This document shows, piece after piece, positions 3,639 to 60,559 of a DNA stretch of 64,000 nt. Within the stretch, counting starts at the first letter, position 1. The number at the start of each line of letters is the position of its first letter. Position numbers and translations under genes: made by a program. The DNA is from Cinnamomum chago (lineage: Eukaryota; Streptophyta; Magnoliopsida; Laurales; Lauraceae), in the NCBI GenBank assembly GCA_038049695.1, contig CP142455.1:33083501-33147500 (forward strand), read 5' to 3'. The notes beneath the pieces are model-generated. The model ran no database searches. It saw only the letters and a program-made list of their open reading frames with translations, and was not told the origin of the DNA.

Positions 3639-4161
3639 GGGCCTGTTAGGGATTTTGTATTTGCAATTTGATGGATGCATTAACATATTCATATCATTTG
3701 AATTTACACTCTTGCATTGTTTTAGAAAACCTTGAAATCTGGTTTTATACATGCATTGCTTTTAAGATTTGTAAAAGTATTGTTTTATTGCATGTTTTGG
3801 TTTTAAACTTGGATGCATTGTTTTTAGTATTCAAACTCTTTTGAAAACCTAATTCTTTGTGCATTATATTTGGAAAATCAATTTGAGAAGTTAAGTTTGT
3901 GCATTGCATACATTCATCATTTTCAGAATCAGTTTTGTATGCATTCTCATTTGAAAAGAGTTTTATCAAATCAAGCTAGCCTTTGGATTTAAAGTTTCAA
4001 ATCATTTTAGGCTCTTTTTGTTTCATGTTTTTAAACATCTTAGATTGACTTAAAACATGTTATCCAAGCTTGATTTAGTGGCCCAAAAATCCTCCCAAAG
4101 AAATACCTTCAAATGTGCAAAAGTTGGAAATTTTGCAAAAGGGGAGTGACCTGGCAGTGTC

Positions 4162-4308
4162 GCCGGTCGGCCGAGACCTGCTTCCTGGTCGACCGGGACC
4201 ACTGTCGGTCGAGTGGGCAGTTTCTGAACTGTAACATGCCAACGGTCAGAAATATGACCGTTGTGCTTTCTCGGTCGACCGAGACCTGTGTCTAGGTCGA
4301 CCGAGGAC
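4162..4308 (+). promoter_or_regulatory. Cluster of GGTCGACC palindromes in the TR-GAG LTR
   Basis: Four to five copies of a palindrome close to CCGGTCGACCGG (one mutated to GGTCGGCC) lie directly upstream of the TATA-like region. The same cluster is at 9964-10108 in the 3' LTR, 28911-29072 in the solo LTR, 58508-58650 (reverse) and, decayed, at about 49850-49930. The position before the TATA box suggests a transcription-factor site; the function is inferred. Confidence 0.6.
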
Positions 4309-5132
4309 TAGCCGTTGGGCATTTTTGGCTTTAAAAATGAGTTCTTTCCCTTGTCCAAAGTTGGAGATTTTTAAGCCTTCTTTGAGGAGCTTTGAGACAA
4401 GACAAAGGGGAGGAACTAAGAGAGACCAAAGGGGTCATTAAGTGAAGCTTAAGCTTGGATCAACTAAGTTAAATCTCCAAGTAAGTTTTACTTTTAATTA
4501 ATCATTTGTTATGTGCTTTATTTGAAACTTTGGAAAATGATTTCAAGCATGATAACAATGATATGTTGAATCCATTCTTCCCTTCATCTTTGATATTCAA
4601 GATTGGATTCATCACTTTGATTTCAACCCAAGTTTTGTTTTAAACTTTCTTAATCATGCTTAGCCTAAATCTTTGATTTCTTTTATTGCATGATTATTTC
4701 ACTTGGTTGAAACTTCCCTTGTTGTTTTCATTCATTTAATCTTTAGTCAAATTAGTTTAGAAAACAACATTGCACATGCATCACTTGATTAGGCTTAAAC
4801 ACTTTCATACAACTTGTGATCTTTAGATTTTCATATCATTCACAAGTGTGTAATTGTTCAAGTGATTTGCATAGAACTTCAATCATATCTTTTTGTGCCT
4901 TAAACTTTCGAATTGCATTAAGCATAAATTGATTGAGCTTACTTTTAAACTTGATTGAAGTTTTCACATACACACTTCATAAGCATACATCTTTGCATTT
5001 CTTTGAGTGTTTGTGTGAGTTAGTTTTCATTTTCATATCCGCCTATTTAGAGGCAAATTAATTTGAGCTTAAATTGTAATCTCTTAGAGTGATCTTTTGA
5101 GAAGACACTTTCTTAGAGAAATCTTTATCTTG

Positions 5133-5300
5133 AAAGGTTATTGCTTAGCCTAAGAAAAGCATTGTGTAAAGGTTATTGCTTAGCCTTGAAAAGCATCTTG
5201 TAAAGGTTATTGCTTAGCCTATAAAAGCACATTGAGAGGTTGTTGTTTAGCCTAGAAAAACAACATTGTAAGGGTTATTGCTTAGCCTAGTAAAAAGCAT
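5133..5300 (+). repeat. Tandem repeat, about 34-bp units, TR-GAG LTR
   Basis: Five degenerate units share GGTTATTGCTTAGCCT followed by AAAGCAT. The array is repeated at 10940-11105, 28400-28505 (reverse), 30098-30160 (cut by the CACTA element) and 57510-57690 (reverse). It lies downstream of the presumed transcription start, so it would be transcribed. Confidence 0.8.
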
Positions 5301-5557
5301 ACATAGTGGAAATCCGGTGGGGTGTTGGATGCACAAGCCGGTAGTGGATGTAGGCACGTTGGCCGAACCACTATAAATATTGTGTTGTGGTGATTGCTAT
5401 GTGGTGATTGTTTTTGTTTTAGCTTCCGCATATTGATTGATTTATCATTACATGTGACTAGTTTTTGTTAAGAATTAAAATTGGTCTTAATTAGTCATAA
5501 TTGTAGCTCACCCTATTCACCCCCCCCTCTAGGGTTAGGATCCCAAGGACTTTCAAT

Positions 5558-5569
5558 TGGTATCAGAGC
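5558..5569 (+). other. Primer binding site, initiator Met tRNA
   Basis: TGGTATCAGAGC lies 2 bp after the 5' LTR. It is the standard plant primer site complementary to the 3' end of initiator tRNA-Met, used by most Copia elements. Confidence 0.9.
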
Positions 5570-5656
5570 CTCGTGCTCTATCTTTTTGGATCAAGTGTTT
5601 GGAACTCTTGATTAGGTGTAAAAACCTAGAGTCAAAAACCCTAGAGTTGTCCTTGC

Positions 5657-7070
5657 ATGAAAATCATTAGAATGGACTCCACTATGCTAGATCTTGTAGA
5701 TTCTTCTAGACCCCTCATTCTTCCTTCTATTGGAGATTCAAACATTCAATTAAAAGAATCTCAATGTGAATTAAAAGAAGAAGAAATTAAAGAAAATGAA
5801 GAAGATCTTCAACAAGCCTTTGAGGAATTATATGAATTATCCTTAAAGACTGAAAAGAAAAACAAAAAGTTAAGAGAAGAATCTAAAAGACTAAACAAAG
5901 AACTAGTCTCTTCTAAAGATGAGCTTAGAGAGAAAGAAGAAGTCATAAATTGTTTAGAATCTAAGTTCATGATCTCTTTAAATAATCTATCTAACATTCA
6001 AGATGAACTAAGAGAATTAAAGATGGATTATGATAATGTCAATAAGGAAAATTTAAAACTAAGAGATCAAATAAAAAGGCAAGACAAAGACTTTAGCAAT
6101 TTAGAAGCCAAGTTGATTAAAAGTAAGTTAAAAACTCAAGAACTTGGATAATGTCATCAATGAACTTAAACTTGAATTAAAACTTGCCAATGAAGAGCTA
6201 AGCAAATATAAGGAAATTGAAAATGAAATTTCAAAAGTCAAAAATGAAAATTCAATCCTTATAACCAAAGTCACTCAACTTGAAGTTTATAAACAAAAGT
6301 ATGAGTGCAAGTTTACCCAAAGTGAAGATAGACTTGAAAAATTATTTAAATTGGGTAAACCTCATGGAGATAGGACGGGTCTTAGATTTAATAGGAATAT
6401 GTCTCATGACCCTAAATTCACCAACACTTTTGTGAAAGGTGAGTCCTCTTTCTCTAGCACTCTTTCTCCTTTGCCCAAAACCAAATGTAATTATTGTGGC
6501 ATTGAAGGGCATTTTTCGTTTGAGTGCAAACTAAGGAAAAGAAGCCATGTGTCTAAACCCATCTTTGAACTCAAAAATGTAAAACCTAAATCTATGAAGG
6601 GTAAGACACTAAAAATCAAAGAAGACTCCAAAAAGATTAAACAAGTTAAACCATTTAAAATGGAGTCTCCTAAGATAGATTCTAAGAAGTTTAAACGAGT
6701 CAAACCAAGTTTAAAAGAATCTATGAACAAAAAGCTTCTCAACCTATCTCCCTTATATCAACCCATGAAAGAACTTTTGAATAAAGTAACAAAGTTAAAT
6801 CTAAAATTCAAAAGTCAAATGAAGGGAGAATATAAGAAGAAGAGAAAAATGAAACAATCCCCTAAGAAACAAACTCACCAACATCAAAAGACTAATCACC
6901 AATCTAAGCTAAATTTAGTCAAATCTAAATATCATGGTGATAAGTTGAAATTGAAAATTTATCAAGTCAAATCTCCTTTAGTTGGTGAGAAGTCCAAACT
7001 AGACCTCAAAGTTCAACACTCCCAAGACCTTAGGTGGATTCCAAAAGTTGTTTACTTAGACAAACCTTAA
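5657..7070 (+). pseudogene. gag-like protein, coiled coil plus zinc knuckle, one frameshift
   Basis: Two overlapping frames (5657-6151 and 6144-7070) together cover about 470 codons, joined by a frameshift near 6144-6151. The first part is a long charged coiled coil with heptad-like Leu/Ile spacing. The second continues the coil, has a segment KPHGDRTGL that resembles the SIRE-lineage Copia Gag before its knuckle, then a zinc knuckle C-x2-C-x4-H-x4-C (CNYCGIEGHFSFEC, codons at 6486-6527) and a very basic Lys-rich tail. The N-terminal capsid-like UBN2 domain of Copia Gag is absent, so only the distal half of Gag is kept. It probably binds RNA. The frameshift could be a real mutation or a recoding site; since the LTRs are young, recoding or a fresh mutation are both possible. 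Confidence 0.75.
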
Positions 7071-9022
7071 GGCCTTGAACCTCATTGACCAACCTATTCT
7101 TTTTAAGTTAAATCACTTTGTTGGTCATGTTGCTTTGCATTTTGTTCTTTCTTAGTTACATTTATTAAAATGCAATGTTTATTTATGATCATTTGATTTT
7201 GTTTTCATGCACCATTCTTGTTACATATCATGGTTTTCAAAATCTTTTGATTATAATTACATCATGTTTGATTTGCTTTTTGTACACATGATATGTCTTG
7301 CATTGCATTTCTTTACATGATTAATTGATTGTGTTTTTAAAAGCTTTCATAGCTAATTTATTCATGATCAATTGTTGTTGGATCATTTGTGTAGATGTCA
7401 TAGTAGTATTATTTGAACAAATGATTTGAATCAACTTAAGTTTTCCATGGATTTCTAAGTTAGACTTTTATATGGAGAACATTGTTTTGAAAAATCAACT
7501 TGTATGTGTTTCAATTAAGTTATATCTTTTAAAATACAATGTTGAAAATTGATCTTCAAAATCATTGTTTTTATGCTCATTGGTGGATTTTGTTTATCAA
7601 AATGATTTGAAGATTGTTTGAATGGAAATGCTCTATAAATTCATTAGTCATATTCATCAAAGCATGTTCCATGTTCTCATTTCCTTTTCTTTTGGTTTCA
7701 TTATCTTAGAAATGGAAATGTATGTTGTTTGCATCTTTGCTTTTTTAGTTATTCTTTTTATATGCAAATAACAATTGGTTCCATGTATGGTTGTGATCTT
7801 AGTAATATTTGTAGAAACCATACTAGAACCCAAATCCATCCTCTATGCCTTATAGTCATTTCTTTTTGGATGGTTATGGTGTTGATTCATGTAGATTCTC
7901 TTGGTGTCATCCTTATACATGTTTCAACTTCATAAGTAGTGATCTTAATCATATGAAACTCTTTGAAATCCATTCCTTGCATTTATGATGGTTGATGGAT
8001 ATCTTAGTAGTTGAATTCATATGATTTAGTCACTTTGGAAATTGCATGCATTTCAAAGTTATATAATTTTGCATTGCAATTTACCTTGTTCATCACTATG
8101 CTTATTAGTTATATATTTAAAAGTGATGAATATGCATTTATGATGCTTGTTGGAATTTTGTGTTTGTCACATCCTTGCTCTTTAACGTGTTGTCAAATTC
8201 AATTGGTTTCATTTGGTATAATTTAAGATTGATTTGATTTCTTGTGTATGTGATAGACCTTGTGTGCATTGGATTGAGCTTGATAGTTATATATTTGTTT
8301 CATATCACATTCCATTAGCATCATAATGTTCATGTTGCCACCTCTTTTGCTCATATAGGTATATCTCATGACCACCATGTTTATGTGTTCATAATATGGG
8401 TTGGTTATTAGTTGAGGTTGGCTTCATGCTTGAATTTCATTTCACTCATCTTGCACATGATAAGTTATATTTATTGATTGAATGAAATGATTTTCAAAAC
8501 CTTCATAGCCTATGCTTTCCATAGTTAGATTATTTGATGCTATGATTAATAAACCCCATTGCTTCATGGATAGCTCTAATTTGGATTTTTCCTAATAGTC
8601 ATTCTTTTAAATCCATTTTAGAGTGATTGATTTAATAGTCATATCCTTAAATCTCAATTGGTATTCTTTGTTTTTCCAATTGGTATCCATGATTGCTTTT
8701 CCCATTAGATCTTGCCTTCTTTTGGTAATTTGATCATAATGTGCTCTATAGTTAAATGAATCTAATCCTTTCCTTGAAGTTGACCCTCATTTGGTTGAAC
8801 CATCTACTTCTTGAACCAAATAGTTATATCTTGTCAAAAGTTTGACAAAAGAAGAGAATGGATTGAGGGGGAGTGTAAACCTTCATAGGAAGAATTAGTT
8901 TTGATCAAATTCACCCTTGGATTGCCTTTGAACCCTTAGAGATAACTTCCATACATGATAGCCTGTTATGTTTTTCATTTTCGATTTCTTTTGTGAACAG
9001 GTGCTACTAAAAGGTATTTTCC
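7071..9022 (+). other. Non-coding interior of the TR-GAG element
   Basis: About 2 kb of very AT-rich sequence separates the gag-like gene from the purine-rich 3' end. Only short, compositionally biased frames occur, and no pol motif was seen. It holds a purine tract GATTGAGGGGGAGTG near 8862-8876, of the kind that often follows gag in SIRE-like elements. Confidence 0.6.
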
Positions 9023-9057
9023 TTGTTTCATGTGTGTAGGTACCTTTGCAATTTAAT

Positions 9058-9444
9058 GTCAAAGGGGGAGAGAGAGTTCAAGTACTCGAAGATCTCCTAC
9101 TCTTCAAAGGGGAAGAGAGCATTCAAGTCCAAGCTTCCTAAGGGGAGGTTGTGTATAATCTTGCCAAAGGAAGAGAGAGGCATGGTCAAAGGGGGAGAGC
9201 AAATAGAAGAAAGAAAGCTTGGAGCTAAAGAAGATGCTTGGCCAAAGAAAGGAAGATGAATAGAAAGCTTAAAGATTGATCAAGCACCAAGCATCAAGAA
9301 GATTGAAGAAGAGAGCCCAAGAGCCCAAGCTAAGAGGAGGAGCATCCAAGAAGATTTCAAGACTTGTCCAGCTTAGGGGGAGCTGAAGACTAAGTGTGTA
9401 ATTTCAATGATGAGTAAGTTGCCATCAAATTGCAAAGGGGGAGA
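9058..9444 (+). repeat. Repeated purine tracts ending in the polypurine tract
   Basis: The unit CAAAGGGGGAGA or close variants (CAAAGGGGAAGA, CTAAGGGGAGG, TAGGGGGAGC) recurs at least six times between 9058 and 9444. The last, AAAGGGGGAGA at 9434-9444, lies 1 bp before the 3' LTR and is the expected plus-strand primer. The others are decoy-like copies. A 78-codon frame at 9023-9259 is formed by these repeats and is not considered a gene. Confidence 0.7.
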
Positions 9445-9445
9445 T

Positions 9446-11360
9446 TGTTAGGGATTTTGTATTTGCAATTTGATGGATGCATTAACATATTCATATCATT
9501 TGAATTTACACTCTTGCATTGTTTTAGAAAACCTTGAAATCTGGTTTTATACATGCATTGCTTTTAAGATTTGTAAAAGTATTGTTTTATTGCATGTTTT
9601 GGTTTTAAACTTGGATGCATTGTTTTTAGTATTCAAACTCTTTTGAAAACCTAATTCTTTGTGCATTATATTTGGAAAATCAATTTGAGAAGTTAGGTTT
9701 GTGCATTGCATACATTCATCATTTTCAGAATCAGTTTTGTATGCATTCTCATTTGAAAAGAGTTTTATCAAATCAAGCTAGCCTTTGGATTTAAAGTTTC
9801 AAATCATTTTAGGCTCTTTGTGTTTCATGTTTTTAAACATCTTAGATTGACTTAAAACATGTTATCCAAGCTTGATTTAGTGGCCCAAAAATCCTCCCAA
9901 AGAAATACCTTCAAATGTGCAAAAGTTGGAAATTTTGCAAAAGGGGAGTGACCTGGCAGTGTCGCCGGTCGACCGAGACCTGCTTCCCGGTCGACCGGGA
10001 CCACTGTCGGTCGAGTGGGCAGTTTCTAAACTGTAACATGCCAACGGTCAGAAATATGACCGTTGTGCTTTCTCGGTCGACCGAGACCTGTGTCTAGGTC
10101 GACCGAGGACTAGCCGTTGGGCATTTTTGGCTTTAAAAATGAGTTCTTTCCCTTGTCCAAAGTTGGAGATTTTTAAGCCTTCTTTGAGGAGCTTTGAGAC
10201 AAGACAAAGGGGAGGAACTAAGAGAGACCAAAGGGGTCATTAAGTGAAGCTTAAGCTTGGATCAACTAAGTTAAATCTCCAAGTAAGTTTTACTTTTAAT
10301 TAATCATTTGTTATGTGCTTTATTTGAAACTTTGGAAAATGATTTCAAGCATGATAACAATGATATGTTGAATCCATTCTTCCCTTCATCTTTGATATTC
10401 AAGATTGGATTCATCACTTTGATTTCAACCCAAGTTTTGTTTTAAACTTTCTTAATCATGCTTAGCCTAAATCTTTGATTTCTTTTATTGCATGATTATT
10501 TCACTTGGTTGAAACTTCCCTTGTTGTTTTCATTCATTTAATCTTTAGTCAAATTAGTTTAGAAAACAACATTGCACATGCATCACTTGATTAGGCTTAA
10601 ACACTTTCATACAACTTGTGATCTTTAGATTTTCATATCATTCACAAGTGTGTAATTGTTCAAGTGATTTGCATAGAACTTCAATCATATCTTTTTGTGC
10701 CTTAAACTTTCGAATTGCATTAAGCATAAATTGATTGAGCTTACTTTTAAACTTGATTGAAGTTTTCACATACACACTTCATAAGCATACATCTTTGCAT
10801 TTCTTTGAGTGTTTGTGTGAGTTAGTTTTCATTTTCATATATATCCGCCTATTTAGAGGCAAATTAATTTGAGCTTAAATTGTAATCTCTTAGAGTGATC
10901 TTTTGAGAAGACACTTTCTTAGAGAAATCTTTATCTTGTAAGGTTATTGCTTAGCCTAAGAAAAGCATTGTGTAAAGGTTATTGCTTAGCCTTGAAAAGC
11001 ATCTTGTAAAGGTTATTGCTTAGCCTATAAAAGCACATTGAGAGGTTGTTGTTTAGCCTAGAAAAACAACATTGTAAGGGTTATTGCTTAGCCTAGTAAA
11101 AAGCATACATAGTGGAAATCCGGTGGGGTGTTGGATGCACAAGCCGGTAGTGGATGTAGGCACGTTGGCCGAACCACTATAAATATTGTGTTGTGGTGAT
11201 TGCTATGTGGTGATTGTTTTTGTTTTAGCTTCCGCATATTGATTGATTTATCATCACATGTGACTAGTTTTTGTTAAGAATTAAAATTGGTCTTAATTAG
11301 TCATAATTGTAGCTCACCCTATTCACCCCCCCTCTAGGGTTAGGATCCCAAGGACTTTCA
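9446..11360 (+). repeat. 3' LTR of the TR-GAG element
   Basis: The 1915-bp LTR is almost identical to the one at 3644-5555. Differences seen by eye include one A/G near 9695, changes inside the palindrome cluster (9964-10108), a 4-bp TATA insertion near 10840 and one C fewer in the C run near 11326. It is followed directly by the target duplication GGGCC. Confidence 0.92.
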
Positions 11361-14666: not shown

Positions 14667-16224
14667 CTACATTTGCTCAGCTATGGAGTCTCGAAATGCA
14701 GTCCACATATCTCTAGTCCACCTTGGAACCGTCATCTCATCTCTTGCCATTCTCAACTGAGGATCAATTCCTGGTGCATTAGATGGAGCCATTCGAATTT
14801 TTTCAAGTAATTCATCTCCAACACCATACATAGCAATATGGTTGTGAAGAACACAACATGCAATTACAATATCTCGTTGGGTTGTTAATGAATAATCACA
14901 TGGCAATTTTAATATTGGAAAGCGATTTTTTAACACTGCGAAGACCCTCTCAATTGTGGTACGTAATGAAGAGTGACGCAAATTATAAAGCTCTTTTGCA
15001 TTTGTTGGAGGACAAGTGATGTTGAACTCTTTAAGATGATATCGAACACCTCTATATGGTGTCAAAAAACCCGGTGCATTACCGTATCCAGCATCCACTA
15101 GATAAAACTTACCTACAATTATGAATCAAAATAATCATTATTAAATGAAGGGTTTAGTTAATGAGCATTTAAGTTATACTGAAATGCAAATTTATATTAT
15201 TTATGCGAGTTGATTACCATCCGGTATTCTTAGCATATCTCCCCTGTTCATTGCAGACCAAAGCACAGTGGCATCTGATGCAGAACCTTCCCATCCCGCA
15301 AGTACATAATGAAATTTCATATCAAATCCACTTGCCATAAGGCAATTTTGAGATAGAACTCCTTTCCTATTTCGATACATGGTTTGCATTGACAATGGAA
15401 CATCAGCTGGTATATGTGTCCCATCAATGGCGCCTATGCAATCCTATTGAGTGAATTAAAATGTTTAGCAAATGGGTTAACATAGACATATATATATATA
15501 TATTAGTTGATGCAAGTAAAAATGTGTAAATATTTAAGGGGATAACCTTAAAGTATGGATAAAATCGGTTATTCATCTGGATCTGTTGTGGAATTGAAGG
15601 ATTTTCTGGAATAAAAATGTATTCTGGATAAATCTTGCAAACTGCATTCAAGACTTCATGAAAATAACGACTAACAGTTTCACCCGAATGGTTAAATCTA
15701 TTTGCCGTTACTCGATTTGTAACATTGTGTGCCAATGTATGTAGAAACATCGCTAATTGCTCGTCAATTGACAAAACACGTCTTCTTCGAAGAAGACCAC
15801 GCCGCATAAAAGTGTCACTCAATATAGAAAAACATTCTGGATGCACACGGAGGTTCTCGTGGCACTGAGGCCCTGTACTGGATAAGAGTTCCTTCACCCA
15901 TATGTCGCCTGACAATGATGAAATGTGTCGCTTTTTTCTTGGTCTTTCCTCTTTTAAGGCTAACCATAATGTGGCTAACTCACAACATACAGCTACCATA
16001 GCAACTAATGCAGATACTAAAATACTTGTGTCCAACTCTGTTATTGCACCAAGTTAAAAGGTTTTTTTTTTTGTAAGTATTATGTGACTATAGGAGCAAT
16101 TAAAAAATGAACTTAGTGAAAATAGAAGCTAGGATGTAAAAAAAATAATGATTCTACAAATTTTGTTTTCAATAATATCACAATAAATTTTAACTAACAG
16201 TTGCGACGAATTAATACCTTCCAT
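14667..16224 (-). CDS. Harbinger transposase (DDE superfamily), four predicted exons
   Basis: The protein cuts and reinserts the element. Predicted exons on the minus strand are 16224-16218, 16037-15547, 15443-15218 and 15112-14667; all introns are GT-AG (180, 103 and 105 bp) and keep the frame. The first coding exon is only ATGGAAG; it gives MEELDTS and is supported by the second copy, where ATGAAAG precedes an in-frame exon. Domains: an N-terminal helix-turn-helix-like region (SIDEQLAMFLHTLAHN), then the catalytic core with GAIDGTHIP (first Asp), AGWEGSASDATVL (second Asp), LVDAGYGNAPGFLTPYRG, and TTIERVFAVLKNRF (Glu). It ends at a stop at 14667. Total length is about 390 residues, normal for the family. 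No internal stop is seen, so the enzyme may be functional; expression is unknown. Confidence 0.85.
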
Positions 16225-21226: not shown

Positions 21227-22895
21227 TCATTCCACATTATCATTATCTTCTTGTTGATGCTCATAATAATTCCACATGAGCTCAACTATGGAGTCCCGAA
21301 ATGAATGCCAAGTGTCTCTGTTCCAGTGTGACACTATTTCTATATTTTTGGTACTTGTCAAGGGAGGATCAATTCTAGAATTTGTCTTGGTGGAGATGGT
21401 TAATTTCAAGCATTGGGTCTCCCGCATTGTGCATAACTATGTGGTTGTGGAGAGTACAAACAATGAGAATATCTTGTTGAGTTGTCAATAAATACCCATG
21501 TGGCATTCATAAAATGGGGAAGCGATTTTTAGTAACTCCAAACACCCGTTCTATGGTGGTGCGCAATAAGAAGTGTCGCAAATTAAAAAGTTCTTTACAA
21601 TTCATTGGAGGACATTCCTTGAACTCTCTCAAATGGTAACAGACACCTATATATGGTGTCAAAAATTCTGGTGCATTACTAAAACCAGCCACTAGATAAA
21701 ATTTACCTACATTTGCATATTAAAGAAGTGAATGTTAAATGAGACTTCACATAATTATAAAAATATATTTATATTTTGGACAAAAATATTTGTATGGTTC
21801 CATTGCCATCTGGTACTGCTAAGTTGTCACTTTTGTTTAGTGTAGAAAAAAGAATAGTAACATCACTTGTGGTTCCTTCCCATCTTGCAAGCACATATTG
21901 AAACCTCATATCTAATCCGCTTGCCCTGAGGCAGTTTTGAGCGAGTTGGCATGCCTATTTTGATAGTTTGCCTGCTTTGTAGTTGGTACATGAGCGGGTA
22001 CGTATGTACCATCTATTGCACCTATGTAATCCTATCATCTGAGTGAAAGAGTTATGATAATGAAAATGTCTTATCGATCTAAAAGAATAAATATGGATAG
22101 ACTAACAGTTAATAGACTAACCTTAAAATAAGGATAGAATCTACAATTTATCCTAATTTGATATGGAGTTGGGGCATTTTCTGAAACTTGAACGTAACTT
22201 GGATAGACCTTGCGTACCGCATCTAATACTTTATGAGAATAACGACTAATAGTGGCGCCTGAATGGTTGAACCGATTAGCATAAATTCTATTAGTAACAT
22301 TGTGGGCCAATGTGTGGAGAAATATTGCTAACTGCTCGTCTATGGACATCACTCGTGTGTTCTGAAGGAGTCCACAATGTGTAAGTGTTTCACACAAGAT
22401 TATAAAACAATCAAGACTATGCGCAGATTTTCATGACATTGAGGGCCCTCAGTTGACTAAAGCTCTGCTTCCCATGATTTGCCTGATGAATATGAAATGT
22501 GGTGTTTCTTTCTAGTTTGCTCCTCTTGTAATGTTAGCCATTGTTCAGCATACAGCCACAGCAGCGCTAACAACAAATATTAAACGTAATTTTAAGGATT
22601 CTGTTGTAATGCAATTGAGAATGTCATTATGTACGAATAAAATAAAAAAAATGCGAGTAAAGTATCAAATGCAAATTAAAAAAAAAATAAAACAAAAAGA
22701 GTAAATTTCCGTGATTCTGTTATAATGCATTTGAATGGTTAACTATGCATAAGTATGTCAAAATGATACAAGTAAAACAAGAGGTGGCAATAATATTATA
22801 TTCAAATGATCAATATGAAGAATTGTACATATCATGGAATCACTAGTGTCATATTAAATCAAAGAAGATAGTTAGGAAGAAATGATACCTTTCAT
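21227..22895 (-). pseudogene. Harbinger transposase, decayed copy
   Basis: Segments of the transposase are seen in order on the minus strand: VMSIDEQLAIFLHTLAHNVT and NRFNHSGATISRY (22071-22397), a remnant around GAIDGT (near 22010), GFSNAPEFLTPYIG and TTIERVFGVTKNRF (21507-21692), and the C-terminal tail (21227-21427). Stops and frameshifts separate them. The 7-nt start exon ATGAAAG (22895-22889), donor GTATC, and acceptor CAACAG before 22600 match the gene model of the first copy. Confidence 0.7.
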
Positions 22896-23715: not shown

Positions 23716-25089
23716 ATAACTGTGAGAACCCGACCCCTAATCTCTTGGATTAGTGTTGTTTTATTTCTGGATTAGTTCTTTTAGTGGGATTAGTAGTTGT
23801 TGGGTTGAGTTTGTGAGCTAGAATGGTTTTTCTTCTAGTTTTGGGCTTTTGAGTGCTTTGGTAGCTTGTGGGGCCCTTTGGAGGTTCCCTTTTCGGCTTT
23901 GCTTTTCTTGTGAGATTTTCCCGATTTGTTTTGTATCTTGTTTTTGGCCCGTTGCATTCATCTTGAGGAATCCTACAACTTTCATGTTGATCTTGTATCC
24001 ATTTGAGAAACCAAAACCCGATTTCTTGGCCTTGAGGGCAAAACAGTCTTTTCACACCAAATCTGTACCCAAAACTCGATATTCTCGAAATCCGTGAAAC
24101 ATACACTTTTTGGAAACTAGATATTTCGACGATCATTTCTTCCTTCTTCGTCGAATCCATCCGAGGTCCCGAATTAGATGATTTCAGCCACCCAAGTCCC
24201 TTAAGTTGTGGGGCCCAAACCTCACTTGTTTATAAGAGGAACCCATCTCCTTCATTGCTCATTCTTCACCATTGTTCCAGCTGAACCTAGGGTTTTCCCT
24301 TGTGCAACTTCTTCTTCTTCTTGCTTCTTCATCTCCAAGCCACACCAATCTTGCACCAAACTAGAAATGGAGATCATCAATCTCTTCCCCTCCTTGCAAG
24401 CTTCATCTTGATAGCATTTTTGGAGAAACTCATCAACATTGAGACCTTCCTTGAGCTTGTTCTTCTCATTTGAAAGTCATCCAAGTAAGTGATTCTTCCC
24501 ATCTTTTAGATTTGTAATCTTCTAGCCTTAGAGAAGCTCCACCTTGATTATTGAAAGGTTTCATGGTCATTTCATTGTTTAACCCATTTTAGGGTTGTTT
24601 TGGGGGTTTTTGTAGAGATTGTGGATCTTGAGCTTGAGAGGTGATTAGGAGCTTGATTTGCTTGATTAGAGTCAAAGGCAAGTGGATGAATGGATTGTTT
24701 TGATTATTAACATGTTTTGTGAGAAAATCTTGATTCATTAATGGTTTTGGTGATTTTAATAGTTGTCTTTAATATGATTAATATTGATTTCAAGATGTGC
24801 TTATTGATGAGTTATTTCTCCCTTGTTAATCTCTTGGAAATGTATGTATCATAGTGTCAAGATTTCAAATGATTTCACATGAATGAGTTTTCTCCACCTT
24901 GTGATTAATTGTGAATGGAAAGAATGGAAAGAGAGGAACTTGAAATGAGGAGCTCTTTAGCTCATGTTATTGTCTTGGAAACATGTATTTAAACCATCTT
25001 GTTTATGGTTCTTTGTGGTTGATTATATGTTGGAAGGAAAGGAAAAAGAGGAAGAAAAATCAGCTTTCCCGGACCTGCTGTACCCAGGT

Positions 25090-25226
25090 CCGATCGATCG
25101 GACCTACAGGCCGATCGATCGGACTGTCAGTAACTGTAAGCCTTTTTGGGCCGATCGATCGGACCCTGTACATTTCTGGTACAGAAATTTCGACCGATCG
25201 ATCGGCCCTTCGGACCGATCGATCGG
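25090..25226. promoter_or_regulatory. Five exact CCGATCGATCGG palindromes
   Basis: Exact 12-bp palindromes lie at 25090-25101, 25111-25122, 25151-25162, 25194-25205 and 25215-25226. Copy B has four, at 41946-41957, 41967-41978, 42007-42018 and 42039-42050. They give false peptides with a repeated DRSIG. The spacing is not constant, so these are repeated sites and not one tandem unit. Confidence 0.75.
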
Positions 25227-26149
25227 AGGACTCAGTTTGAGTCCAGTGAAATTTGGTATTGTGTTTTTTTGGAAACCTTTGGGCCTTCTATGAGTCCTAG
25301 GGGTGTATACCTTAGTGTTAAGACCAATTGTACCCTAATCTAAGGTCCCTAAGACTAGGGAACTAAAAGGAAAGAATGGTGATGATCTAGACACTAATCC
25401 TTGGTTTTAGGTGGGACCCTTACCCTTTTTGGACTGTTTGGCCTATGAGTGAGGATGTCTTGAGCCGACACTCCTCCCGGTGGGTTCGGTGACATCGAAG
25501 TTAATCCATTTCAATCTTGAACGGGATGGAACGACGCGATATCTTCTTTATATCTAAACACAAGTCTATTTCCTTGGTTATCGCTAATTCTATTCCTTTC
25601 GAGGACTGAGTAGGTTGCTCGATGTTTCCGGATTAATGTCATGCCTAGGATGGACCGTTTATAATCTTGATTCTTGCTATTGTAACATCTAGTACTACCC
25701 ATAAGCTCATTTTAAGTTTTGAAAGTAGTGAAAGTGCATAAGGAGCCCGGAATGTCTTCAAACTCAAGGAGTACCAAGTAATTATTGTAATCGACATACG
25801 GGACCCCTATTCACTTAAATAGATCTGGAAATCAATATTCTTCCCGAAACGGTATAGTGCATTATATTTCCTCATTTCCCGAGATTTGCATCACATGACT
25901 TGTTTCCCGAAAGCATTGAAGTTACTCTGGTAACAGTTATTGTCCCGAAGTGCATTGCACCACATGATATGTTAGTGTGCCCTTGAGCACCCCCGTCTTG
26001 CCCGTTTGATTATGTATTTGTACTTGATTTACTTGCATTGTCTCGATTGTATTTGACCTATCAGTCGGCACCACTAAGCTTGGATAACCTTGTTGGTCTG
26101 ATCCACCAACTTGGAGATCCCCCTCTTGTCCCGCCAGCTGCAGCTTGGA

Positions 26150-27260
26150 TCCCGCTACCCGGTTATTACCGTGGTCCCGTCCCGATACCCGGTTATTACC
26201 GTGGTCTTGTCCCGATACCGCAGATTGCTACTGTGGTCCCCGATGCCCGGCTCGCTACCGTGGTCCCGTATAGTATATGTATATGCATTCATGAGATCCC
26301 CTGTTTCTCCTCACCTCGAGTGACTGAGATCAGGGCCTAGTATATGTATATGTATTGATATGAGATCCCCTGTTTCTCCTCACCTCGAGTGACTGAGATC
26401 AGGGCCTAGTTATTGCTCTATCGCTTTAGTGATAGAGGACTTAGCTTCGTGTGGTTGCCATCTTGCCAGTTCCCGATTCCTTGGATACCCGACATGTTTT
26501 ATATTGTTTACTTGCTTTCCGATAAATGATTCGTTTCCTTTATGAAAGTTGTTATTTAAACAAGTGCTAATATTCTCCAATGTAAATTCAGTTATTATTA
26601 TATTGTTTTCTGTTCTTTGTACCCGCACATGTTTTAAATGGATGCCGGTTGGGCGAATACCCATGCTTTTACATATGTTTCAAACGATCGATGGTTTTAC
26701 TAGATTTATGTGATTACACATGTTTTAAATGAATACCCGAATTGTTAAATATCCGTGCCTTGTTTTAAATGACATTTGGCTGGTGAGATTCCTATGTTTA
26801 TACCGTTTTAAATGATTACCCGATTTGTCAAATATCCATGGTTTGAAATATGTTTTAGATGACACTTGTTTTGCCAGATTCCTATGTTTATACCTATTTT
26901 ACATGATACCCGATTTGTTTAAATATCCATACCTTGGAATAGGTTTAAACGAACATTAGTCTTGTCAGATTTCTTGGGTTACACTTGTTTTAAATGAACA
27001 CCCGGTTTGTTAAATATCCGTATTTTCACATATGTTTCAAATGGACATTGGTTTTGCTAGACTGTTATGGATACCTGATTTGTTGTATACTTGTGTTTTA
27101 CTTAAGTTTCAAAGGAACGTTTGTTTTGTCAAACCACTATATTTATACATGTTTTAGACGAATACCCGATTGTCAAATATCTATGATTATAGATGATATA
27201 AATGAATACATGTTTTATTAGATGTTCATGTTTTACCCGTGCTTGAAATGAATACAAGTT
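26150..27260 (+). repeat. Tandem arrays inside solo LTR copy A
   Basis: Three arrays follow each other. About 33-bp units with CCCGGTTATTACCGTGGTCC occupy 26150-26270. A direct duplication of about 70 bp (GAGATCCCCTGTTTCTCC ... CAGGGCCTAG) occupies 26270-26409. Degenerate units of about 80-90 bp with GAATACCCGATTTGTTAAAT and TGTTTTAAATGA run from 26620 to 27260. The first and last arrays are also present in copy B. Confidence 0.75.
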
Positions 27261-27906
27261 TTCCCCGAGATTCCCGACTTTGCACCCGTATAATTATATG
27301 CAGCATTTTGAGCAAATAGCATGATTTATCATTTGTATTATTATTCGCTATATTGTGTTCTCTTCATCCACCTGCCAGACCATCGTGTCTGACCCACTAC
27401 TTTTGGTACTCAGGTTCAGATTTCTTCGCCCCGAGTTGAGTGTTTCTATTGGCTGTGGAGCCATGCCTTGCAGGTTGGTTTGTCGGCTATGTCATGTAGA
27501 CATTGAGCTTGACATCGGAGCTACGTCACATTTGGGTAGTAGTTTATAGCTTCTTGTTGTATGGCTTTTATTAGCCTGTTTCTTGGGCTTCTTAATTAAT
27601 GTACATTGATAATTGTAACTTGAACATATTTGGGAATGTAATATCCTGTTGCTGTCAGCTCTGTAATTTATTGTGATGGTTACTCCAGTCTGATATGATT
27701 CTTGATATAATAGCTTAGTGCTAAAGGTTGAGTGCGACGCGGAATCCGATGGCCACGGACTTCGGGTCGCAACGCCACAAATGCTTCCGCAAAATATTCA
27801 GAATGTGTTGTCCTCACACACGCGGATCTTGGGAGAAGTAAAAATACATTTATGCTTAATCCCATCTCCCGCCCCCGAGGTTTCGGTTCGGGGGCGTGAC
27901 AATAAC

Positions 27907-28533: not shown

Positions 28534-29092
28534 TGTTAGGGATTTTGTGTATTGCAATTTGATGAATGCATAATCATTCAGCATCATTTGAATTTACACA
28601 CATGCATTGATTTAGAAAAACTTAAAATCTTGATTTATACATGCATTGTTTTTAAGACTTGTAAAAATGTTGATTTATGCATGTTTTGATTTTAAACTAG
28701 GATGCAATAAATTTTGAAAAGAAGTTTTATCAAATCAAGCTAGCCTACGTTTTAAATCTTTCAAATCTTTTTAGGCTTTTATGTTTCATGATTTTAAACC
28801 TCTCAATTTGATTTAAATCATGATTCCAAGCTTGATTCAGTGGCCCAAAAATTCCCCTCAAAGAAATACTTTGGAAATATGAATTTTAGGGAAATTTGGT
28901 CCCTGGGCCCTGGTCGACCCGCAGTGTGCTCGGTCGACCGAGCCAGACCCGGTCGACTGAGCACACATGCGGTTGACCGGGAAAGAGCCGTTGGGCTACT
29001 TTTTCAAACGGTCAGATTTTTGACCGTCGAGTACCAGGTCGACCCGGGGGTCATGGGGTCGACCGAGGACTAGCTGTTGGGCAGTTTTTGGG

Positions 29093-31475: not shown

Positions 31476-31640
31476 TGTGAGAACTTGGTCCGGGCGGTAC
31501 CCTTAATCACGGAGCGTAGCATGTCAACCACGGGCTTCAAACGGTGAGTCTCCGTTAGCCCACATCAGAAATATCCAAGTCCTGACCTTGGGCTTATAAG
31601 TCAAACCCCGTATTAACTTAGCATGGGGCTTTTTAAAACC

Positions 31641-31738
31641 ATGCGTCCCCGGAAATCATAAGAACTTCGAAGTTAAGCGTGCTCGGGCGGGAGCAGTATT
31701 AGGATGGGTGACCTCCTGGGAAGTCCTCGCGCGTGCAC
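31641..31738 (+). ncRNA. 5S rRNA-derived sequence in Cassandra-type LTR 1
   Basis: The match to plant 5S rRNA covers about the last three quarters of the gene, including AAGTTAAGCGTGCTCGGGC (A-box region) and AGGATGGGTGACCTCCTGGG (C box), and then GAAGTCCTCG. These are the internal RNA polymerase III promoter elements. Copies are at about 31997-32094 and 32353-32436. It is not a genuine 5S gene because it sits within a retroelement LTR and differs at several positions. Confidence 0.85.
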
Positions 31739-31788
31739 GTGGGCCAAAGCGGATAATTTCATGCTGAGTTGGGCGGGGTTGTGACAGT

Positions 31789-31800
31789 TGGTATCAGAGC
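31789..31800 (+). other. Primer binding site of the Cassandra-type element
   Basis: TGGTATCAGAGC follows LTR 1 by 2 bp and matches the initiator tRNA-Met 3' end. In the second interior it is TGGTATCGGAGC (32145-32156), one base changed. Confidence 0.85.
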
Positions 31801-32555
31801 CGAGGACGACTCTATTTCTAGTGGGGGAGAATGTGAGATCTTGGTCCGGGCGGTACCCTTAACAACTGGGCGTAGCGTGTCAATGACGGGCTTCAAACGG
31901 CGAGTCTACGATAGCCCGCATCGGAAATATCCAAGTCCTGATCATGGGCTTATAAGTTAAACCCCGTATTAACTTAGCATGAGGCTTTTTAAAACCGTGC
32001 GACCCCGGAAATCTTAAGAACTCCGAAGTTAAGCGTGCTCGGGCGGGAGCAGTACTAGGATGAGTGACCTCCTAGGAAGTCCTCGCACGTACACGTGGGC
32101 CAAAGCGGACAATTTCATGCTAAGTTGGGCGGGACTGTGACAGTTGGTATCGGAGCCGAGGACGACTGTATTTCTAGTGGGGGAGAATGTGAGATCTTGG
32201 TCCGGGCGGTACTCTTAACCACGGGGTGTAGCGTGTCAACCATGGGCGTCAAACGATGAGTCTCCGTTAGCCCGCATCGGAAATATCCAAGTCTTGACCA
32301 TGGCTTATAAGTCAAACCCCGTATTAACTTAGCATGAAGTCTTCTAAAATCGTGCGGCTCCAAAAATTGTAAGAACTTTGAAGTTAAGCGTGCTCGGGCG
32401 GGAACAGTACTAGGATGGGTGACCTCCTGGGAAGTCCTTGAGTTGGGCGGGGTAAATGCGACAAAAAAATTTTGTCTCTATTTTTTAAATTTATGACAAA
32501 ATATTTTTGTCTCTAATTTCTTCCTTTAATGACAAAATATTTTGTCACTAATTAC

Positions 32556-40553: not shown

Positions 40554-42609
40554 TGTGAGAACCCGACCCCTAATCTCTTGGATTAGTGTTGTTTTATTTG
40601 TGGATTAGTTCTTTTAGTGGGATTAGTAGTTGTTGGGTTGAGTTTGTGAGCTAGAATGAGTTTTCTTCTAGTTTTGGGCTTTTGAGTGCTTTGGTAGCTT
40701 GTGGGGCCTTTTGGGGGTTCCCTTTTCGGCTTTGCATTTACTTGTGAGATTTTCCCGATTTGTTTCGTATTGTGTTTTTGGCCCATTGCATTCATCTTGA
40801 GGAATCCTACAACTTTCATGTTGATCCCATATCCATTTGAGAACCCAAAAACCGATTTCTTGGCCTTGAGGGCAAAACAGTCTTTTCACACCAAATCTGT
40901 CCATTAATTTCGAAAATTTCAGAATTTGGCAAAATTAGACTTTTTGGAAAGTAGATTTTTCGCTGATGAATTTTGTCTTCTTCGTCGTTTTCATCCGGGG
41001 CCCAGAAACTTGTGTTTTTCCTTTGAGAAGTTTAAGTGAGGTGGGGCCCACACCCACCCCTTTATAAAATGGGTTCCTTCTCCTTCCTCTTCATCCTTTT
41101 CCCTGCAACGGTTCCAGCAAGAGCTGGAACCACTCCTCTCTCAGCCACTCTCTCTCTCTCCTCTTTCCCTTGGCTTCTCTTGATTGTAAATGGAGATTTG
41201 ATCTCCTCATCATCTTCCATACCTTCCAAGCTTTCCAAAGATGTTATTTTCATGGATTTTGAGCAAAGGCAACTTCTCTTTTCAAGCTCTTCTTCTTGGT
41301 TCAAGGCTTTAAAGGTTAGCATTTGGTTTCTTTCTTTTAATCTTTGTTTTCCCAAACCATTTGGAGTATTTTTATCTTCCATTCATGGATTTTCATTGAG
41401 GTTTGCAATGGATTGGATTTTCTAGGGTTTTCATGGGAAAATTTGGGGGTTTTGGTGGGTTTGGAGCTAGAGACTTCTTTGAGGCTTTTGTGGAGTGATT
41501 TGTGCATCTTCTTAACCCAAGGCAAGTGGATGAATGGATTGTTTTGCTTATTAACATGTTTTGTGATAAAAATCTTGATTTCATTGATGGTTTTGGTAAT
41601 TTTAATAGTTGTTTTTGATATGATAAATATTGATTATGAGATGTGCTTATTGATGAGTTATTCTTTCTTGTTAAGCTCTTGAAAGTGCATGCATCCTATT
41701 GTCAAGAATTTCAAATGGTTTCACATGAATGAGTTTTCTCCACTTTGAGTTTTATTGTGGATGGAATAGATGGAAAGGATGGAAATGGAGGAACTTGAAA
41801 TGAGGAGCTCTTTAGCTCATTCTAATACCTTGGAAACATGTATTAAGTATCCTTGTATCTAGTTCTATGTGATTGATTATATGTTGGAAAGAAAGGAAAG
41901 AAAAATGAAGAAAATCCAAGTCCCGGACCTGCACTGCGCCCAGGACCGATCGATCGGACGTGCAGACCGATCGATCGGTCTGTTAGTAACTGTAAGGGTT
42001 TCTGGACCGATCGATCGGGCCCTGTGTAGAAATTTCGACCGATCGATCGGTGGACTCAGTTTGAGTCCGGTGGATTTTGAGAATTTTATTTTTTCCTTAG
42101 AGCTAGGTGGGACCTTGGCTACCCTTTTTGGACTAATTGGACTATGGGTGAGATGTCTTGTGCCGACGCTTCTCACGGTTAGTTTAGTGGCATCGAAGTT
42201 CAATCCGTTTCAATCTCGAACGGGATGGAATGACGCGATAACTCCTTTATATCCAAATATAAGTCTTTTGCCTTGGTTATCGCGAATTCCATTCCTTTCG
42301 ATGACTGAATAGGTTGGTCGATGTTTCCGAATTAACGTCATGCCTAGGATGGACCGTCTATAACCTTGATTTTTCCTAGTATGAAATCTAGTACTACCCA
42401 CAAGCTCATTTTAAGTTGTGAAAATAGTAAAAGTGCATAAGGAGCCCGGAATGTCTTCAAACTCAAGGAGTACCAAGTAATTATCATAATCGACATACGG
42501 GACCCCTATTCACTTAAGTAGATCTTGCAATCAATATTTTTCCCGAAATGGTATAGTGCATTATATTTCCTCATTTCCCGAGATTTGCATCACATGATAT
42601 GAAATGAAA

Positions 42610-42950
42610 GTGTGCCCTTGAGCACCCCGTTTTACTCGTTTATTTATTGTACTTGATTTACTTGTTTCCCCGAAAGCATTGGAGTTACTTTAGTAACAGT
42701 TATTGTCCCGAAATGTATTGCCCGATATGATATGACAGTGTGCCCTTGAGCACCCCGTTTTACTCGTTTATTTATTGTACTTGATTTACTTGTTTCCCCG
42801 AAAGCATTGGAGTTACTTTAGTAACAGTTATTGTCCCGAAATGTATTGCCCGATATGATATGACAGTGTGCCCGTGAGCACCCCCGTTTACCCGTTTATT
42901 TACGTGCCCTTGAGCACCCCCGTTTACCCGTTTATTTACTGTACTTGATT
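42610..42950 (+). repeat. 128-bp tandem duplication in solo LTR copy B
   Basis: Units 42610-42737 and 42738-42865 are nearly identical, starting GTGTGCCCTTGAGCACC. They are followed by a shortened third start and a repeat of about 37 bp (GTGCCCTTGAGCACCCCC). Copy A has a single unit here (about 25970), so the expansion is specific to copy B. Confidence 0.85.
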
Positions 42951-43419
42951 ACTTGATATGTCTCGATTGGTTTTATCCTATGAGTCGGCATCACTAAGCT
43001 TGGATACCTTGCCAGTCTGATCCACTGACTTGGAAATCCCTCTCCCGTCCCGCCAGCTGCAGTTTGGATCCCGATACCCGGTTATTGCCGTGGTCCCGTC
43101 CCGATACCCGGTTCGCTACCGTGGTCCCGTTCCCGTATATTTATTATTGTATATATGATTTACGTTGAGTCTCCTCACCTTGTGTGACTGAGACCAACGT
43201 CCCGCTCTTGTCACTTCGGTGATAGAGGACTTAGCTTCTTGTGATTGCCATCTTGCCAGTTCCCGATTCCTTGGACACCCGACATGGTTTATATTGCTTA
43301 CTCGTCTTCAGTTAAATGATTCATTGCTTTTATGAAAGTTGTTATTTAGATAAGTGTTAATGCTCTCTATTGTAAATCCAGTCACTATTATATTGTTTTA
43401 TGTCCTTTGCACACGTACA

Positions 43420-44060
43420 TGTTTTACAGGAATGCCGGTTGGGCGAATACCCGTGCTTTTACATATGTTTCAAACGATAAATGATTTTGCTAGATTTATA
43501 TGATTTCACATGTTTTAAAGGAATACCCGAATTGTTAAATATCCGTGCTTTGTTTTAAATGACATTTGACTGGTGAGATTCCCATGTTTATACATGCTTT
43601 AAATGATTACCCGATTTCTAAATATCCATGCTTTGAAATATGTTTCAGATGACATTTGTTTGCAAGATCCCTACGTTTATACCTGTTTTTAAATGAATAC
43701 CCGAATTGTTAAAAACCCATGCTTTGAAATAGGTTTTCAAATGACACTTGTTTTGCCAGATTCCTAGGTTTATACCTATTTTACATGATAACCGATTTAT
43801 TAAATATCCGTATTTCTACATAGGTCTCAAATGGACATTGGTTTTGCTAGACTGTTATGGATACCTGATTTGTTGTATACTTGTGTTTTACTTGAGTTTC
43901 AAATGAACGTTTGTTTTGTCAAACCACTATATTTATACATGTTTAGACGAATACCCGATGGTCAAATATCTATGATTATAGATGATGTAAATGAATACAT
44001 GTTTTATTAGATGTTCATGTTTTACCCGTGCTTGAAATGAATACAAGTTTTACCCGAGAT
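43420..44060 (+). repeat. Degenerate 80-90-bp array in solo LTR copy B
   Basis: Repeated units carry AATACCCGA, TTGTTAAATATCC and TGTTTTAAATGA, collinear with 26620-27260 of copy A. Confidence 0.7.
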
Positions 44061-44691
44061 TCCCGACTTTGCACCCGTTTAATTATATGCAGTACTTGAT
44101 CGATTAGCATGATTTATTATATGTTTTACTCTTTAGTATATTTGTGATCTTTTCATCCACCTGCCAGACCGTCGTGTCTGACCCACTACTTTTGGTACTC
44201 AGGTTCAGATTTCTTCGCCCCGAGTCGAGTGCTTTTGTTGGCTGTAGAGCCATGCTTTGCAGGTTAGTTTGTCGGCTATGTCATGTAGACATTGAGCTTG
44301 ACATCGGAGCTACGTCACATTTGGGTAGTAGTTTATAGCTTATTGTTGTATGGCTTTTATTAGCCTTTTCTTGGGATTCTTAATTAATGTACATTGATAA
44401 TTGTAACTTGAATATATTTGGGAATGTAATATCCTGTTACTGTCAGCTCTGTAAATTATTGTGATGGTTGCTCCAGTCTGATATGATTCTTGATATAATA
44501 GCTATGGGCTAAAGGTTGAGTGCGACGCGGAATCCGATGGCCACGGACTTCGGGTCGCAACGCCACAAATGCTTCCGCAAAATATTCAGAATGTGTTGTC
44601 TTCACACACGCGGATCTTGGGAGAAAAATACATTTATTCTTAATCCCAATTCCCGCCCCCGAGGTTTCTGTTTCGGGGGCGTGACAGTGAT

Positions 44692-53071: not shown

Positions 53072-53076
53072 GTGAT

Positions 53077-59922: not shown

Positions 59923-60559
59923 TTGTACACACTACTCCATATATTGCACATGAAAATAATGTGTTGAGTAGTTCCAAGAAAAAGAATTTATCAGCACTGC
60001 ACGCACATCCACCTATCATCATTACGGAATAAAAGGACACATTCGTCCCCATTGCAAGAAGCTGCAAAGTCTACTAAAGTCCAAGCAACAGCGGAAGACT
60101 TTCTCTCCACCCAAGACGACTACAATTTGGGTAAGAAGATCTGATTTGCCTAAGGAAGTTGCTCGCACTGTGCTGAAGAATCAAACTACACAAGTGTTTG
60201 TGGGTAGCTACATACAAAAAGCCCTAATAAAGAAGATTAAGTTCCCACCTCCAGTGCTGCTATGAAGTTACAATTCGGGGGGACTGCAATTGAGGGGGAG
60301 CTATTGATTCTTACTGACAAGTATGCTGCATGTTAACATCATTAAATTTGTCAATTATGGACAAAGATGGGGAGATCATGTATAGAAGATACTAGATCAA
60401 AGGGGAGAACAAAAAAACTAGAGAGGAAGCCAGAGACAATGCAAATCTACTAGTGTTGATTATTGATTTTTTTACAGTCAATGCATTGGGCTTTGTTTTC
60501 TGTAAATCAATTTCTATTATCTTAGGGAGTCTTGTCTATGAATTTTCAAAGGCGACTAT
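59923..60559 (+). pseudogene. Copia gag C-terminal remnant and 3' interior
   Basis: After the solo LTR, a second knuckle-like segment is seen at 60014-60055 (YHHYGIKGHIRPHC), in which both first Cys positions are lost; His and the last Cys remain. A basic stretch (KKLQSLLKSKQQRK) follows. From about 60240 there is only non-coding sequence with purine tracts, up to the 3' LTR. No integrase or reverse transcriptase is present. Confidence 0.6.

Follow-up and report, generated by a model that had tools for sequence, protein, structure and literature searches.

The closest described counterpart of the sequences discussed here is the repeated motif (RM) of the Sireviruses, a palindrome with a CGG-CCG signature, such as CGGTCGACCG in Vitis and ACAATCGATTGT in Tnd-1 (PMC2829016). 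The available part of that paper places numerous RM copies, alike within an element, in the upper half of the LTR before the TATA box, calls the RM Sirevirus specific and absent from classic Ty1/copia elements, and reports that no single factor was found for all of them. The LTRs of maize Sireviruses contain the palindromes CACCGGAC..GTCCGGTG, which also recur in Helitrons (Bousios 2016, as cited in the accessible text of PMC10760457). In Del elements (Ty3/gypsy), the LTRs carry plastic 5' CpG islands, which the accessible portion of PMC4029996 assigns to monocot groups, with none in eudicot Del elements.

The window (the whole 64,000-nt stretch of Cinnamomum chago DNA that was analyzed) contains arrays of 12-bp palindromes of two types, A (CCGATCGATCGG) and G (CCGGTCGACCGG):

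25090 to 25226, forward strand: A-type array of five exact CCGATCGATCGG sites (25090, 25111, 25151, 25194, and 25215; spacings of 21, 40, 43, and 21 bp) in solo LTR 1 of the 4-kb family, with an AACTG core in the 40-bp gap
41946 to 42050, forward strand: A-type array of four exact CCGATCGATCGG sites (41946, 41967, 42007, and 42039; spacings of 21, 40, and 32 bp) in solo LTR 2 of the 4-kb family, with an AACTG core in the 40-bp gap
4163 to 4308, forward strand: G-type array in the 5' LTR of a Sirevirus derivative, sites with at most 2 mismatches at 4163, 4185, and 4271 (4163 to 4282)
9965 to 10108, forward strand: G-type array in the 3' LTR of the Sirevirus derivative, CCGGTCGACCGG and variants at 9965, 9987, and 10073, with an inverted AACGG...CCGTT pair between the site pairs
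28910 to 29072, forward strand: G-type array in a related LTR, five sites with 2 mismatches each at 28910, 28930, 28949, 28969, and 29035 (to 29046)
58508 to 58650, reverse strand: G-type array in a reverse-oriented LTR of the TR-GAG-labelled family, sites with at most 2 mismatches at 58530, 58616, and 58638 (58530 to 58649)
53236 to 53290, forward strand: A-type sites in an old Copia LTR, one exact (53236) and one with 2 mismatches (53279), 43 bp apart and flanking CAGTTA
60701 to 60776, forward strand: A-type sites in the other Copia LTR, exact at 60701, with 1 mismatch at 60744 and 2 mismatches at 60765 (spacings of 43 and 21 bp)

The five and four exact CCGATCGATCGG sites that a sequence-only reading had reported in the 4-kb LTRs all lie where it had placed them, as do its exact (53236 and 60701) and diverged (60744 and 60765) Copia sites, to which the diverged copy at 53279 is added. 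Its four clusters of CCGGTCGACCGG-like sites in the TR-GAG LTRs are likewise present, with the reservation that their edges at 4308, 10108, 29072, and 58508 take in sites with more than 2 mismatches; an exact CCGGTCGACCGG occurs in the window only once, at 9987.

These palindrome arrays are of a known kind, the Sirevirus RM boxes. They consist of CGG-CCG palindromes in multiple LTR copies, alike within an element, in the upper half of the LTR, and the Vitis RM makes up the core of the G-type word. Downstream of the arrays, TATA-like words were noted by eye: CTATTTAAAGG near 53397 and 60883, CTTTAAAAATG near 10131, and TTTATATCC near 42246. The RM definition asks for at least 8 copies per element; counted by array, 2 to 6 sites are found here. 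The hosts are Sireviruses in the case of the TR-GAG-labelled element and of locus L010, but not in that of the L086-L044-L093 stretch. In contrast to the arrays described here, the RM is not mentioned in the available part of PMC2829016 as present in Ty3/gypsy LTRs, as helically spaced, as enclosing a Myb core, or as switching between types. The maize palindromes, as described in the accessible text, resemble these arrays in forming clusters with a predicted structure in the LTR cis-region and in recurring in another superfamily, but they are a different word, for which a small-RNA role was proposed. Del LTRs share with the gypsy-type LTRs here a length of several kilobases and a variable CpG-rich block in the 5' half; judged from these descriptions, the Del CpG islands may represent the same phenomenon as the gypsy arrays, although the string "palindrom" is absent from the accessible text of PMC4029996.

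What looks new is the presence of the boxes in coding Ty3/gypsy elements, their spacing by nearly whole helical turns, their discrete uniform types, the enclosed Myb core, and the sharing of some spacers between gypsy-type and Sirevirus LTRs. The open-licence literature, as far as its text was accessible, contained no report that one palindrome array occurs in both superfamilies, that boxes are helically spaced, or that their type switches, and a search on the Myb motif gave no match. The arrays are genuine and pronounced, and they belong to a known class that here extends, unusually, across superfamilies.

Frequency and types of the palindromes

The degenerate word CCGRTCGAYCGG has 12 exact matches in the window versus 0.01 expected, a number reached in none of 100 shuffles. 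In the whole genome (1.06 Gb), it has 28,286 matches, including 15,936 of the A type, 11,616 of the G type, and, by subtraction, 734 mixed-arm sites with one A arm and one G arm. CCGRACGTYCGG, a control palindrome matched in length and number of CpGs, is found 18 times (190 times when read backwards), and the backwards readings of CCGRTCGAYCGG, CCGATCGATCGG, CCGGTCGACCGG, and CCGYTCGARCGG occur 89, 24, 21, and 34 times, respectively. The word is thus strongly enriched genome-wide, which supports the sequence-only reading on this point. CCGYTCGARCGG, which has 1,265 matches, was dropped as a clean control, since among the places listed nearly all were CCGCTCGAGCGG, some of them in pairs 20 to 21 bp apart, which makes it a third (C) type. 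There are accordingly at least three box types, with A, G, or C at the symmetric pair of the 12-bp dyad CCGNTCGANCGG; its TCGA center is constant, the outer CCG/CGG less strictly so. Exact A, G, and C-pattern sites (28,286 plus 1,265) number about 29,500 in this one genome. Loci L001 to L038, the first places listed on contig C1 and not a random draw, comprise 31 distinct stretches, 30 of which resemble another compared stretch with the sites masked and are therefore repeats, putatively LTRs. A search for CGATCGATCG with "retrotransposon" returned nothing informative from the open-licence literature, the text of PMC11656987 has neither "TCGA" nor "palindrom" at any word start, PMC4963935 and PMC3599292 offered nothing of use, and an ncbifam scan gave no matches.

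The types are kept apart. Among the loci with at least two sites at no more than 1 mismatch, 33 of 34 are uniform in type; the sole exception, L017, combines an A array and a C array about 440 bp apart, each of them uniform. The 734 mixed-arm sites compare with some 27,200 expected if the arms were independent; two pure populations would likewise produce a low count. At one homologous place in the gypsy-type LTRs, the boxes are of the A type in the window, of the C type with one A in L003, and of the G type, in several outer forms, in L086, L088, L089, and L090. Similarly, L002 (G) shares 84% and 73% identity with L006 (A) to the two sides of the array, within which only a 56-bp piece aligns, and L037 (C) matches L007 (A) with 86% identity on the TATA side and L038 (C) with 85.5% on the other. 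Because homologous LTRs thus bear different types between similar flanks, arrays appear to have been swapped as units.

Carriers of the arrays

The sequence-only reading had assigned the arrays to three unrelated LTR families, TR-GAG, Copia, and the 4-kb family. This was rejected: the TR-GAG element has exact Sirevirus junctions, and the Copia LTRs resemble Sirevirus LTRs and show, by eye, a decayed junction at best. The relevant features are as follows:

3644 to 11360, forward strand: full-length element, earlier labelled TR-GAG, a Sirevirus derivative with LTRs at 3644 to 5555 and 9446 to 11360 (99.4% identical) and the target duplication GGGCC (by eye)
5556 to 5569, forward strand: Sirevirus 5' junction ATTGG/TATCAGAGC, directly after the LTR end CA
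8866 to 9445, forward strand: five AGGGGGAG octamers (8866, 9063, 9190, 9375, and 9436), the last followed by AT and then by the LTR start TG
60550 to 60561, forward strand: decayed Sirevirus-like polypurine tract (PPT) plus attachment site (AGGCGACT AT/TG), where the Copia 3' LTR begins, recognized by eye from homology to L019, in which the PPT is intact

The element at 3644 to 11360 is of the Sirevirus (Ty1/copia) kind. Its primer-binding site (PBS) region, CA/ATTGG/TATCAGAGC at 5554 to 5569, is exact, and AGGGGGAG is found 10 bp before the 3' LTR, with the AT/TG site and several linker copies; both hallmarks are as defined by Bousios et al. 2010 (PMC2829016, available part). The domain scan covered two open reading frames of this element: 5645 to 6148, without any retroelement domain, and 6132 to 7067, with a CCHC knuckle as its sole domain match. 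An element of the TR-GAG type would be non-autonomous, with LTRs and no coding sequence beyond a gag-like frame; the observation that bears on this label is the CCHC knuckle. Relatives of the frame at 6132 to 7067, which is gag-like, are unnamed or, in 3 of 10 cases, labelled Streptomyces, probably a sign of plant DNA in bacterial assemblies. The aligned parts of the window Copia LTRs (53075 to 53919 and 60558 to 61348) match the LTRs of L007 and L019, which have intact Sirevirus junctions (PPT and PBS), so that these LTRs look like those of a decayed Sirevirus relative. A-type sites, an exact Sirevirus junction, and a copia gag domain occur together in L010. In L005, positions 2022 to 2954 match Transposase_32 (plant transposon protein) below the Pfam cut-off and adjoin an LTR start with an exact Sirevirus PPT and A-type sites.

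The remaining A-type arrays of the window lie in two solo LTRs of a non-autonomous, probably Ty3/gypsy-related family:

23721 to 27901, forward strand: solo LTR 1 of the 4-kb family, flanked by the 5-bp target duplication ATAAC (by eye)
40554 to 44686, forward strand: solo LTR 2 of the 4-kb family, with the target duplication GTGAT (by eye)

None of the 10 loci fetched with the 3' end of the 4-kb LTR, the window copy among them, has a primer site right after the LTR. Three copies of the family with an interior (about 1.84 kb) have the primer site TGGTATCAGAG(C) and no open reading frame of more than 90 aa; in 2 of these 3, a G-rich PPT precedes the next LTR. The LTR end, primer region, and array flank of the family resemble those of the Retrotrans_gag elements L039, L040, and L044, and the identity of the 4-kb LTR to coding gypsy LTRs beside the array is 67 to 76%. 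L044 encodes Retrotrans_gag and Ty3_capsid domains; L093, farther along the same element, has strong RVT_1 and RT_RNaseH matches, followed by Integrase_H2C2 below the cut-off; and L086, upstream in its LTR, holds one TCGGTCGACCGA site. With a Ty3-type gag and with reverse transcriptase and RNase H preceding a weak integrase match, the L086-L044-L093 stretch (L044 and L093 lie 432 bp apart) is a Ty3/gypsy element. Sites with at most 2 mismatches are present in 5 of the 6 gypsy LTR stretches L085 to L090, an exact one in L089 only and none within 2 mismatches in L087. Since both L010, with its copia gag, and the Ty3/gypsy stretch L086-L044-L093 bear sites, the palindromes cross the border between the Ty1/copia and Ty3/gypsy superfamilies.

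The suggestion that retention of CpG-rich sites reflects selection is not supported by the counts. In 17 close copies of the 4-kb LTR, taken best-first and too alike to be decisive, site CpGs are retained in 203 of 203 cases versus 82 of 85 for non-site CpGs, and the sites in the old Copia LTRs are decaying. The 17 copies come from 25 loci, after leaving out L057 (the query itself) and L060, L064, L069 to L072, and L077 (neighbors in tandem arrays). The conservation of the 4-kb LTR sites was reached by 6 of 113 shifted layouts.

Solo LTR 2 also contains a tandem duplication at 42596 to 42902, with a period of 128 bp (97% over 179 bp). Head-to-tail LTR arrays are found at G000:C3:75702612-75731579, C2:54315731-54360620, C6:28611734-28629456, and C1:29772242-29787596, with periods of about 5.6 to 5.8 kb (4-kb kind) and 7.66 kb (L044 to L046), as if LTR-interior units had been tandemly amplified.

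Spacing, Myb core, and possible function

Sites are spaced near whole helical turns, with overall clusters at 20 to 22, 31 to 34, and 40 to 43 bp. Of 50 A pairs listed with an allowed spacing of 15 to 42 bp, 30 are at 20 to 22 bp, 19 at 40 to 42 bp, and one at 37 bp; spacings of 23 to 39 bp account for 809 of 7,581 A pairs, and among 50 of these listed, 49 are at 31 to 34 bp. The G-type pairs among those listed are 22 to 23 bp apart, and the pairs listed at 44 to 72 bp fall mostly at 49 to 51, 60 to 63, and 71 to 72 bp (exceptions, 55 and 66), many of these being sums of shorter steps. All these lists are drawn from the places that come first on contig C1, and some of their entries are copies of one repeat, so that the counts are not independent events. 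The 42 adjacent spacings of at least 30 bp in the sampled loci are in phase at 10.5 bp (R = 0.52), a value that none of 4,001 jittered sets reached at this period and one of 4,001 reached when all seven periods were allowed; the scan over periods, however, peaked at 11.1 bp (R = 0.64) and not at 10.5 bp. With only the 25 distinct spacing values, the observed R was reached by 131 of 20,000 null sets.

The spacers are rich in YAACKG, which is taken here, in the wider Myb consensus naming, to be the Myb core. It occurs 33 times in 3,694 bp within arrays versus 7 times in 7,170 bp of flank, i.e., about 9 times more densely inside, although kinship of the arrays by descent means that these and the following counts overstate independence. 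Among the arrays of at least 60 bp, 22 of 32 contain it: 12 of 15 of the A type and 10 of 12 of the G type (22 of 27 for both), versus 0 of 4 pure C arrays. The 10 arrays without it are the 4 pure C arrays, the mixed L003, and L002, L005, L027, L028, and L034. AACTG is typical of A-type arrays, often in the four-turn gap; AACTG or CAGTT is present in 11 of 15 gaps of 36 to 46 bp versus 0 of 61 gaps of 14 to 26 bp. Arrays of the TR-GAG group have AACGG...CCGTT pairs instead. AACGG is also the core of the MSA elements bound by MYB3R factors (PMC10905365, accessible part), a likeness in sequence. In L017, L024, and L012, some short spacers are themselves palindromic (e.g., CCTGCAGG), and gaps of 50 to 51 bp hold CTCAGTTAACTGAG, so that some whole cassettes are near-symmetric.

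The reading preferred here, with a probability of roughly 0.6, is that the arrays are LTR enhancer cassettes of the Sirevirus RM type, present in both superfamilies and bound by a host homodimer and a Myb-class factor. The core of such a cassette would be the CCGNTCGANCGG dyads with their invariant TCGA center, repeated 2 to 6 times at nearly whole helical turns; in most A- and G-type arrays, a Myb core lies between them. Acting as a symmetric dimer, a host protein might sit on the dyads along one helix face and, together with the Myb-class factor, might drive transcription of the element. The same design would serve Ty1/copia Sireviruses, a gag-only-looking derivative, coding Ty3/gypsy elements, and their non-autonomous 4-kb relative, and could be shared partly through ancestry or convergence and partly through exchange of cassettes between LTRs.

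Proteins lined up along one helix face would be expected to leave such near-whole-turn spacing, which serves no purpose in an RNA stem. This bears on the sequence-only proposal that the sites either bind a host factor or pair as hairpins: the spacing would favor the former, and folding leaves some room for the latter. If the arrays formed RNA or single-stranded DNA hairpins, pairing of the boxes might feed small-RNA silencing or another RNA function, and the need to pair would maintain both palindromy and uniformity. Minimum free energy z scores for the 8 arrays folded, most of which fold strongly, range from -1.8 (window Copia) to -8.6 and are in line with this possibility, as are the mean z of -2.0 obtained with sites fixed and spacers shuffled (in 16 of 33 arrays, z is below -2, so that spacers strengthen the fold beyond what the sites give, the strongest in the G type) and the small-RNA hotspots at maize Sirevirus palindrome clusters (Bousios 2016, as cited in the accessible text of PMC10760457 and PMC5311732). 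However, pairing requires no invariant TCGA center, the spacers of the 4-kb arrays of the window contribute nothing (z of -0.88 and +0.62), and inverted Myb sites alone would also raise folding. A hairpin role is considered rather unlikely.

Somewhat less probable still is a neutral origin, in which a unit of about 21 bp was tandemly duplicated and then amplified with a few successful LTR families, the types being founder effects. Many copies are indeed young (TR-GAG LTRs, 99.4% identical; 40 best 4-kb matches, 91 to 100%), and one LTR drew 2,637 and 2,981 first-look candidates (40 scored per search), which could alone give large counts. Yet neighboring units differ in their spacers, spacings of 31 to 34 bp occur beside multiples of 21, the center and dyad are kept in two superfamilies with diverged flanks, and the Myb core is enriched within the arrays.

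Shared spacers, possible exchange, and descent

With the sites masked, comparison of 40 stretches at an E value of 1e-4 revealed no similarity linking the 4-kb group with either the TR-GAG or the Copia group. The spacers give a more varied picture. With the AACTG core held in place and each pair judged singly, 12 of 32 cross-group spacer pairs were matched by no more than 5 of 500 shuffles. Specifically, 3 of 14 pairs between 4-kb LTR and Sirevirus arrays pass this test (best, 21 of 30 identical, in L017). For the L020/L025 group, 6 of 14 pairs with Sirevirus arrays pass (the best, in L026, with 22 of 29 identical), as do 3 of 4 with 4-kb LTRs. All 8 pairs with window Copia spacers fail. L020 and L025 belong to a group (L002, L006, L020, L025, L033, and L034) that, like L001, L023, L029, and L032, is counted with neither superfamily; L025 has the complete primer site TGGTATCAGAGC without the Sirevirus ATTGG. 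The earlier statement that the LTRs are otherwise dissimilar thus applies to the masked flanks and the window Copia spacers but not to the 3 of 14 pairs of 4-kb and Sirevirus spacers, which are alike beyond the Myb core; to that extent, sequence around the sites is shared, which partly counts against the sequence-only reading. Since 12 of 32 pairs pass and all 8 window Copia pairs fail, some arrays seem to be of common ancestry across superfamilies and others alike in design only.

Common descent of everything, with all families being variants of one ancient LTR, is highly improbable. It would fit the homology of the 4-kb and coding gypsy LTRs beside the array and the exact (TR-GAG) or decayed (Copia) Sirevirus junctions, but not the lack of any link between the masked groups among the 40 stretches compared, nor junctions and proteins that belong to different superfamilies. 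A bolder version of the enhancer reading, which is possible but doubtful, has phased CCGNTCGANCGG dyads around a Myb core moving as a cassette between Ty1/copia and Ty3/gypsy elements, with the symmetric pair switching array-wide to track a family of host dimers; A, G, and C would then be parallel private channels of a shared on-switch serving much of the retrotransposon load of this genome.

LTR promoters evolve fast and are usually thought to be private to each family. The enhancer-cassette reading suggests instead that unrelated retrotransposon families tap, or trade, one host-driven on-switch. If so, families with one cassette in two superfamilies would compete for, or share, the same host factor, and it could be predicted which of them wake together. 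With three word types and about 29,500 exact sites, DNA-binding assays could fish out the factor directly, and the question raised in 2010, which protein recognizes the RM, would become testable.

Two further regions of the window contain repeats of other kinds. A tandem duplication with a period of about 356 bp at 31476 to 32438 includes two TGGTATCAGAGC-like primer sites (31789 and 32145). On the reverse strand, positions 15427 to 16053 encode the HTH_Tnp_4 domain of a DDE endonuclease, and parts of the region around this match recur about 6.6 kb apart (14829 to 15773 and 21432 to 22348) with 74 to 75% identity.
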